Made by a program: the position numbers and the translations under genes
DNA from: Xanthomonas sp.
GTDB lineage: Bacteria > Pseudomonadota > Gammaproteobacteria > Xanthomonadales > Xanthomonadaceae
Length of the DNA: 64,000 nucleotides
Direction of reading: 5' to 3'
Assembly (NCBI RefSeq): GCF_017163755.1
Contig: NZ_JAFIWC010000019.1
Coordinates: 1 to 64,000 of the forward strand
Notes under the pieces: generated by a model
Seen by the model: only the letters and a program-made list of their open reading frames with translations
Told to the model about the DNA's origin: nothing
Databases searched by the model: none
Part shown: piece after piece, positions 33,607-62,496 of the stretch
Layout: each line of letters begins with the position of its first letter
How positions within the stretch are numbered: position 1 is the first letter of the stretch

Positions 33607-33684
33607 GGTCGCGGCTGAAGCCGCTCCTACAGAAAACCATTGCAGCGTCAGGTGCGGGCTGCATCATCGAGTCCCGAGTCCCGA
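33607..33684. repeat. Single REP-like copy followed by a short heptamer run
   Basis: 33607-33632 is identical over 26 bp to the left arm at 24483-24508. About 37 bases on, 33669-33684 carries just over two copies of GAGTCCC, the heptamer found at 1-76. The two dispersed repeat families therefore meet in this gap between convergent acyP and ppk2. Confidence 0.85.
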
Positions 33685-45260: not shown

Positions 45261-45337
45261 GGGATTGGGGATTCGGGATTGGGGATTCGCAGAGCAGGCG
45301 CTGTTGCGAATCCCCAATCCCGAATGCCGAATCCCGG
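45261..45337. repeat. Inverted GGGATTC-type repeat pair between prs and rplY
   Basis: Left arm 45271-45290 and right arm 45306-45325 are exact reverse complements over 20 bp with a 15-base loop; the outer parts (45261-45270 and 45326-45337) pair imperfectly. Units are GGGATTC/GGGATTG, a variant of the GGGACTC heptamer found elsewhere in the window. It lies 10 bases after the prs stop and may serve as its transcription end. Confidence 0.92.
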
Positions 45338-46122: not shown

Positions 46123-46734
46123 ATGGCTGGCCTGCGTCTGATCGTCGGTCTGGGCAACCCCGGACCGGAACACGCGAATACCCGGCACAACGCCGGGTTT
46201 CGCTTCGTCGAACATCTGGCCGAACGGGCCGGCGCGCGCTGGAGCGTGGACGCCAAGCTGTTCGGTGAAACCGCCAAGGCCGACGTGGCCGGGCAGGCGG
46301 TGTGGCTGTTGAAACCGGCCACCTTCATGAATCTCAGCGGCAAGTCGGTGATCGCCGCGCTGCGTTACTGGAAGATCGAACCCGAGCAGGCGCTGCTGGC
46401 GCACGACGAACTGGATCTGGCGCCGGGCACGGCGCGCTTGAAGTTCGACGGCGGCCATGGCGGCCAGAACGGGTTGCGCGACACCATCCGTCTGCTGGGG
46501 CACGCCGGCTTCCACCGGCTGCGCATCGGCATCGGCCACCCCGGGCACAAGGACAAGGTCGTGCCGTGGGTGCTCGGACGCGCCAGCAAGGACGACCAGA
46601 TCCTGATCGACCGCGCCATCGACGACGCCATCGCGGTGCTGCCGCTGGCGGTGAACGGCGATTTCAACGAGGCGATGAAGCGGCTGCATACGGTCGGGAC
46701 TCGGGACTCGGGACTCGGGACTCGAAACCCCTGA
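46123..46734 (+). CDS. pth: Peptidyl-tRNA hydrolase with repeat-derived C-terminal tail
   Basis: Recycles peptidyl-tRNA dropped from ribosomes. The 203-residue product has the family motifs LIVGLGNPGPEHANTRHNAGF with catalytic H22, KPATFMNLSGKSV, LLAHDELDL with D95, and GGHGGQNGLRD. The conserved body ends near residue 190 (EAMKRLHT). The last 13 residues, [13 protein letters not shown], are read from the heptamer array at 46694-46724 and the bases after it, so the native stop has been replaced by repeat sequence. The tail should not affect the active site but is not family-conserved. Confidence 0.95.
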   Translation: MAGLRLIVGLGNPGPEHANTRHNAGFRFVEHLAERAGARWSVDAKLFGETAKADVAGQAVWLLKPATFMNLSGKSVIAALRYWKIEPEQALLAHDELDLAPGTARLKFDGGHGGQNGLRDTIRLLGHAGFHRLRIGIGHPGHKDKVVPWVLGRASKDDQILIDRAIDDAIAVLPLAVNGDFNEAMKRLHTVGTRDSGLGTRNP

Positions 46735-46848
46735 ATTCCCTGGAAGCATGTCCCTGTCTCACCCCATGAACATAGGATTGCTGCGAATGTACAAACAACC
46801 GCGTGCCGGCTTTGCGCCGAGTCCCGAGTCCCGAGTCCCGAGTCCCGG
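46694..46848. repeat. Inverted heptamer array pair between pth and ychF
   Basis: About 4.4 copies of TCGGGAC at 46694-46724 (inside the pth coding end), and the exact reverse complement, four-plus copies of CGAGTCC at 46818-46848. They are separated by 93 bases of unrelated, AT-richer sequence. The arms could pair over about 30 bp in RNA. The right arm ends in CGGAG, which serves as the ribosome binding site region of ychF. Confidence 0.95.
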
Positions 46849-48232: not shown

Positions 48233-48306
48233 GCGGGAGTAGTTCAACGGTAGAACCTCAGCCTTCCAAGCTGATGGTGCGGGTTCGATTCCCGTCTCCC
48301 GCTCCA
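48233..48306 (+). tRNA. tRNA-Gly (TCC)
   Basis: A 74-base tRNA. Acceptor GCGGGAG (48233-48239) pairs with CTCCCGC (48296-48302); discriminator T, then CCA. The anticodon loop CTTCCAA gives TCC. T arm GGGTTCGATTCCC. Confidence 0.97.
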
Positions 48307-53683: not shown

Positions 53684-53972
53684 TCGGCATCTTGCATCGC
53701 CAGCGTGTCAGGTGATGCATCGAAGGCTGGGGGCGCAAGCCCCCGGCCTTTGGCCGTTGTTGCAAAGCCGGGAAATTCGGCGTTGGAGATTCGGTCGGGG
53801 CCGCCTGGCTCGTCCCGAATCCCCTGATCCCCAATCTCGGCCTCACCGAGTTGGTAGTTGGAAGTAGCAAGAGAAGGCGTGCTGGTGCCGGCAATACCAG
53901 CGACTTCCAACTGACAATTTATGTTCACTCAGGGCCGCGGACGCGCGGCCCGCACAGCCAAGGTGATACCTC
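53684..53972 (+). promoter_or_regulatory. rplL-rpoB spacer with hairpins
   Basis: No gene. First, a GC hairpin around 53725-53748 (GGGGG/CCCCC core, loop CGCAAG), possibly an attenuator. Next, degenerate GGGATTC-type units in inverted order (about 53770-53845). Then a 10-bp inverted repeat, AGTTGGAAGT (53856-53865) with ACTTCCAACT (53903-53912), enclosing a smaller stem GCTGGT/ACCAGC. In E. coli the same spacer holds an attenuator and an RNase III site, so a processing role is plausible but unproven here. Confidence 0.65.
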
Positions 53973-58124
<4,152 letters not shown>

Positions 58125-58130
58125 GGAGCC

Positions 58131-58222
58131 GGGACGCGGGACCCGGGACCCGGGACTCGGAAAAGCGAGAAGCGCGAGCGCTCCTGCTTTCCGAGTCCCG
58201 AGTCCCGAGTCCCGAGTCCCGC
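58131..58222 (+). repeat. Inverted heptamer hairpin between rpoB and rpoC
   Basis: Left arm 58131-58160 (GGGAC[C/G]C and GGGACTC units) and right arm 58191-58222 (four-plus units of GAGTCCC) are near-perfect reverse complements, including the inner GGAAAAGC / GCTTTCC ends. The loop of about 20 bases has a further small palindrome, GCGCGAGCGC. The stem is about 35 bp in the rpoBC mRNA, starting seven bases after the rpoB stop and ending 56 bases before rpoC. Confidence 0.95.
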
Positions 58223-58278
58223 AAAAAGCCTTCCCGCCCCGTCCTCGATACGAAATTCCTCCGACCCGGAGATACCCA

Positions 58279-62496
<4,218 letters not shown>

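Follow-up and report, generated by a model that had tools for sequence, protein, structure and literature searches.

A stable hairpin of convergent heptamer arrays between rpoB and rpoC in Xanthomonas belongs to a known repeat class, and its predicted stem persists in relatives without intact heptamers

Rehm et al. (2015, PMC4692102) reported G-rich heptamer repeats of the GGGAATC type, inverted pairs included, from Xanthomonas, under a search rule of at least one GGGAATC unit per repeat. The accessible text of that report gives no link of the repeats to mobile elements and finds no role in gene regulation for them; it does report that GGGAATC oligonucleotides form G-quadruplexes (G4) in vitro and that assembled transcripts began or ended more often at G4-capable repeats. 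As far as the available portions of the reports describe them, the heptanucleotide arrays of Nostoc (PMC4692102) and the TAACTGA arrays of Beggiatoaceae (PMC4679880) are, like those studied here, dispersed intergenic bacterial heptamer arrays, but their units differ, and just a few inverted pairs are given for Nostoc. A further likeness is to REP/BIME sequences, which in the accessible parts of two papers (PMC3733652, PMC12306157) are also dispersed intergenic sequences forming hairpins in messages; unlike them, the arrays here are tandem heptamers and, judged by eye, carry no GTAG-type tagged palindrome.

We analyzed a stretch of 64,000 nt from a Xanthomonas sp. genome (the window; G+C 69.6%), in which a first-pass annotation had placed opposed GGGACTC-type arms with matching inner ends between two RNA polymerase subunit genes. 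Both arms and inner ends are present. On the + strand, rpoB (RNA polymerase beta, 53973–58124; an open reading frame with six Pfam Rpb2 domains) and rpoC (beta′, 58279–62496; an open reading frame with five Pfam Rpb1 domains) are separated by a gap of 154 nt, the first part of which is occupied by two convergent arms of four heptamers each. The left, G-rich arm (58131–58158, + strand) reads GGGACGC, GGGACCC, GGGACCC and GGGACTC and starts 6 nt past the rpoB stop codon, and the right arm (58193–58220) consists of four GAGTCCC units on the + strand, equivalent to four GGGACTC units on the − strand. Between the arms, all on the + strand, lie the left inner end GGAAAAGC (58159–58166), a 19-nt loop region (58167–58185) in which the predicted fold places a short inner helix, and the right inner end GCTTTCC (58186–58192), which pairs with GGAAAAGC in that fold.

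The gap RNA is predicted to fold stably, as the annotation had supposed. For RNA 58100–58280 the minimum free energy (MFE) is −89.3 kcal/mol (z = −7.5), and 0 of 200 dinucleotide shuffles were as low (mean −57.2, SD 4.3). The proposed hairpin of about 35 bp survives as a very stable intercistronic hairpin and not as a perfect 35-bp helix: the left GGGACCC and GGGACGC units lie opposite GAGTCCC, giving one mismatch in most units, and because of these base changes the stem is predicted to be a chain of short helices. In this genome (G000) four identical right-arm units face three unmatched left units, so homogenisation of the right arm has come at the expense of pairing. That the arms are evolving is borne out by the left-arm variants and by differences between species (below). 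Rfam returned sub-threshold microRNA models at the stem, none reaching its gathering threshold, and across the window tRNAs alone passed that threshold.

The feature at rpoB-rpoC (rpoBC) is confirmed, is stable, and adds a new member to a known class of repeats. Its arms are tandem GGGANTN-type heptamers of at least two units and belong to the Xanthomonas G-rich heptamer class as the accessible text of Rehm et al. (PMC4692102) defines it; lacking a GGGAATC unit, they fall outside the letter rule of that report and inside the class by form. Like the arrays in that text, those here are of GGGANTC type, commonly have four units, are dispersed and mostly intergenic near gene ends, and include convergent pairs able to form stem-loops. 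Unlike in that account, GGGACTC is the dominant unit in this genome, and the rpoB-rpoC location, the recurring GGAAAAGC inner edge, and the variation of the unit among species at one and the same site go beyond what its accessible text describes. A simple repeat at this position had been thought unusual, a view that finds no support: the class, published in 2015 with its inverted pairs (PMC4692102), is dispersed through this genome, and 69/149 family genomes hold a threefold GGGANTC match (reversed GGGANTC control 0 to 2 per strand, except G033 with 26 and 44). Among the papers listed by our literature searches on rpoB-rpoC hairpins and intercistronic processing, none is on an rpoBC hairpin like this one, the sole hairpin match concerning an algal plastome; a search on heptameric G-quadruplexes in Xanthomonas gave Rehm et al. 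and a frameshifting review, and one on heptamer repeats in Lysobacter gave no match.

Arrays of this class are abundant across the genome. The doubled unit GGGACTCGGGACTC occurs in 531 copies (271 + 260) in 5.07 Mb, far above chance (reversed control 0), so arrays are not peculiar to rpoBC. The window together with contigs C1 and C4 (358 kb) holds 43 arrays and 13 convergent pairs, which extrapolates to roughly 180 convergent pairs genome-wide, an estimate that excludes stretches L046–L050 (chosen for holding matches) and includes C1 and C4 whole, but only after matches in both had been seen. Four units is the commonest array length in two counts (25/64, and 27/65 in G000), and a stricter array rule gives 26 two-unit and 25 four-unit runs among 67. 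Array neighbors within 250 bp are overwhelmingly convergent, with 19 convergent, 1 divergent, and 4 same-strand cases in G000; ten relatives add 24 convergent neighbors and a single same-strand case. Arrays of at least three units (n = 25), placed with a home-made gene caller, are intergenic in 21 cases, inside called genes in 3, and at an edge in 1. Within the window, convergent pairs also lie at 45261–45321 (units GGGATTS) and at 46696–46846 (four GGGACTC units per side around a 95-nt spacer); a regex match at 48287 was dropped, as it falls within a tRNA. At the contig end (1–76, − strand), GGGACTC is repeated at least 10 times in one array, and contigs likewise start within or beside long heptamer arrays at G150:C31:1 and G150:C9:7; such arrays may therefore break short-read assemblies and be undercounted.

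We rejected two models for the spread of the arrays. A REP-type Y1 transposase as mover is at odds with the genome's two Y1_Tnp matches, which have no array of at least two units within ~1.5 kb (~3-kb loci). In the case of a MITE model, the inside sequence is not common to copies and spacers are mostly locus-unique: among 17 spacers of at least 25 nt in the G000 sample, one has a long stretch in common with dispersed loci, one has a local copy, three have weak 21–24-nt matches, and 12 have none. As a separate observation, three dispersed loci (L035:8761–8966, L048:5249–5451, and L048:9953–10123) have ~170–210 nt in common adjoining a heptamer array, at 81–84% identity, and this element also holds a palindromic repeat found widely in the sample. 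At the orthologue of window position 33669 in relatives, palindromic repeats of the form GTCGCGGCTGAAGCCGCTCCTAC adjoin arrays, and we take these to resemble REP elements.

The inner ends at rpoBC are a recurring array edge and are not private to that locus, because AARAGC-type letters recur at array 3′ edges. Read on the G-rich strand, 25/159 arrays have them no more than 10 nt from the 3′ edge (13/65 in G000 and 12/94 in ten relatives), as compared with 1/159 at the mirror 5′ edge, 11/159 in the same-strand 5′ flank, and a background of 0.3% per 10 nt.

The heptamer unit itself is species-specific, with orthologous sites bearing different units. We counted doubled units of four types (GGGACTC/GGGACCS/GGGAATS/GGGATTS, forward plus reverse) in 20 genus genomes, and the balance among types shifts, from 531/231/11/52 in G000 and 388/170/8/248 in G160 to 96/14/48/622 in G134, 152/342/43/23 in G151, and 0/0/394/150 in G153. 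At site 46694, GGGACTC in G000 is replaced by GGGATTS in G134, G160, G111, G159, and G006, by GGGACCG in G151, and by GGGAATG in G153 and G058. Where the unit changes across orthologous sites, the spacer sometimes differs too and is sometimes retained; at rpoBC it is retained within the clade that has the downstream sequence in common. Unit and spacer appear coupled at 46694, C1:100992, 114369, and 117399. A tally over six sites, in which genome pairs are not independent and arm limits were placed by eye, gave 34 comparisons with different units and spacers that could not be aligned, 23 with different units and alignable spacers, 35 with the same unit and alignable spacers, and 4 with the same unit and spacers that could not be aligned. 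We therefore rejected a strict coupling of unit change to spacer replacement, since units also change while the spacer stays. The G162 orthologue of 46694 keeps its spacer at 78% and has a left arm of four GGGACGC units. Recombination between species may underlie part of the unit and spacer pattern. Upstream of rpoB, the rplL-rpoB gap (window 53795–53830) carries a convergent heptamer pair in 5/10 relatives (G159, G151, G006, G153, and G058), a remnant only in G000 and four others, and none in G157.

The predicted rpoBC stem persists across the genus. We delimited the gap in all 20 genomes of the genus, in the 10 further family genomes that matched best among those receiving loci, in 10 named relatives (L053–L062), and in 39/70 more distant loci, the rpoB end pattern having no match in the remaining 31, and folded each gap against 200 shuffles with its last 14 nt removed (gaps of up to 54 nt were folded whole); three named relatives and six distant loci were too short to fold. 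Values of z ≤ −2 were found for 19/20 genus gaps, 7/10 further family gaps, 3/7 folded gaps of named relatives, and 22/33 folded distant gaps, leaving 3/10, 4/7, and 11/33 short of this level in the farther groups. By comparison, heptamer-free co-directional gaps of 60–200 nt, drawn from one genome (G000) with a home-made gene caller, reach z ≤ −2 in 7/47 cases (median z −0.65, 100 shuffles), and gaps with heptamers in the same sample in 8/12. At a further array site, rplA-rplJ, folds from five genomes gave z values between 0.3 and −2.5, with no clear pattern.

This stability does not track intact repeats. Two adjacent intact heptamers occur in 7/20 genus gaps and 3/10 further family gaps, and 12 of the 13 genus gaps that lack them are at z ≤ −2. 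The 13 comprise six of a 130-nt form whose remaining heptamers are degenerate, six of an 89-nt form that has none (5/6 at z ≤ −2), and G157, and because they fall into such related forms, independent cases are few. The G162 gap folds with an unbroken run of 37 base pairs. In G149 and G157 the class is nearly lost genome-wide (13 doubled units in G149 and 6 in G157, the four types taken together), and both retain the stem (z −3.3 and −2.7, respectively; with folding confined to the first 105 nt, −5.3 and −4.1); the G149 gap still has two adjacent intact units and the G157 gap does not. A G-quadruplex motif on the + strand is present in 4/20 genus gaps and 0/10 further family gaps. The persistent property of the locus is thus the predicted stem, which outlasts intact heptamers. 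The identity of the repeat, its fold, its dispersal, and the predicted hairpin in gaps without intact heptamers all come directly from computation. Heptamer-like arrays of other letters form predicted stems in the rpoBC gaps of L100 (a Nitrosomonadales MAG; CAGGAAT type, z −9.9) and L055 (Luteimonas saliphila; GTGATTC type, z −4.9), perhaps as independent cases.

We lean toward the interpretation that repeat DNA serves at rpoBC as an intercistronic mRNA hairpin that is kept there and marks the rpoB 3′ boundary. The convergent array pair would form a stem on the rpoB-rpoC message, marking off the rpoB 3′ end; this stem would slow 3′-to-5′ exonucleases or be cut by a double-strand RNase, and rpoC would be translated from its own ribosome site downstream. 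Heptamers would be the stem material in some lineages, and worn-down or unrelated sequence in others. In form, a stable intercistronic hairpin would be suited to blocking exonucleases or to being processed, and the predicted stem probably does one or the other. That selection keeps the stem, like the stem's action on the RNA, is our inference. Weighing against this interpretation are the lost pairing of the right arm in G000, the gaps of the farther groups that fall short of z −2, and the absence of a regulatory role for the class in the work of Rehm et al. (PMC4692102).

The main competitor, a tentative but serious one, is that the pair is selfish or neutral repeat DNA without a role specific to rpoBC: it would have landed in an intergenic site that tolerates it, and slippage, together with template switching from one inverted arm to the other during replication, would keep its arms alike. 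Dispersal in intergenic gaps (21/25 arrays of at least three units) fits this, as does the likeness of arms within pairs, which agree more (0.763) than arms of different pairs (0.614; 0/2000 shuffles as high, 43 pairs, in a test that counts orthologues repeatedly). Template switching is expected to give such agreement, and either it or selection could do so. Likewise, both rpoBC arms of G160 are one unit shorter, which could be compatible with either process. Across pairs, equal arm lengths are not in excess (17/43, shuffled mean 16.1). Covariation, tried as proof of selection, was set aside: RNAalifold on nine rpoBC gaps gave no net support (covariation term +0.92), with a double change at 4/35 pairs and an ambiguous repeat register in the arms for pair counting, and its absence again suits neutral repeats. 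Against them stand the 19/20 genus gaps that fold, among them the 89-nt heptamer-free form, and the retained folds of G149 and G157, where the class is nearly lost.

The first-pass annotation had proposed a more specific role, with the stem as an RNase III target that would set the rpoB:rpoC ratio. A long double-stranded predicted stem does lie between the two genes, but regular mismatches interrupt it, and rpoBC gap MFE within the genus ranges from about −27 to −106, which is hard to fit with a finely set ratio; we consider this version unlikely. Less probable again, and a long shot, is that convergent arrays were written by templated addition of repeats to 3′ ends of DNA, which would heal intergenic breaks in a telomere-like way, with some sites, including rpoBC, then kept as RNA hairpins. 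Each broken end would receive about four species-specific heptamers with GGAAAAGC as the closing sequence, and rejoining would take place across filler DNA. Such a process would explain why polarity is almost always convergent, why a 3′ edge recurs, why most spacers are unique to their locus, why the unit at a given site differs between species, and why four is the common count.

That the G-rich arm acts as a G-quadruplex element, a possibility taken up for the class in the accessible text of Rehm et al. (PMC4692102), is very doubtful. The four G3 tracts of the left arm do make up the motif at rpoBC, and the in vitro behavior of GGGAATC oligonucleotides in that report is in keeping with it; yet few genus gaps and none of the further family gaps carry the motif, G160, the nearest form, lacks it, and the C-rich arm, present in cis, is a competitor for the G-rich one. 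Just as doubtful is an intrinsic terminator or attenuator, for which a strong G+C-rich hairpin and the excess of transcript starts and stops at G4-capable repeats in the same accessible text (PMC4692102) could speak, because no T-run follows the stem on the + strand, the single terminator-like consensus match lies on the other strand and is within shuffle expectation (1 vs. mean 0.8), and a consensus scan of 57900–58400 gave no sigma-70-like promoter able to serve rpoC.

The rpoBC gap also holds a second, smaller hairpin, CTCCG-ACC-CGGAG (58259–58271, + strand), which contains the GGAG before rpoC. All five of its pairs are retained in 9/9 aligned gaps (one as G-U). The pattern CTCC-N2-8-GGAG occurs in 36/79 delimited gaps, compared with ~11 expected on shuffling the 12 nt before GGAG (14/20 in the genus, 5/10 further family, 6/10 named, and 11/39 distant), and is seen also in the rpoBC gaps of Klebsiella and Vibrio. 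This hairpin could sequester the rpoC ribosome site.

The fresher part of these results is the persistence of the rpoBC hairpin without intact repeats, together with the species-specific unit at orthologous sites. Orthologous rpoBC gaps range from four-unit and three-unit arrays through degenerate heptamers to no heptamers at all, and within the genus a stem is predicted for almost all of them; the presence or absence of the repeat is therefore not the presence or absence of the hairpin. Strains with and without the array do occur naturally, but comparing them within the genus would not contrast hairpin with no hairpin, because nearly every genus gap without intact heptamers (12/13) still reaches z ≤ −2. 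The question thereby concerns not a single operon but a repeat class found genome-wide and of unexplained origin and upkeep, for which rpoBC is a clean locus at which to ask whether repeat DNA is co-opted as an RNA element.
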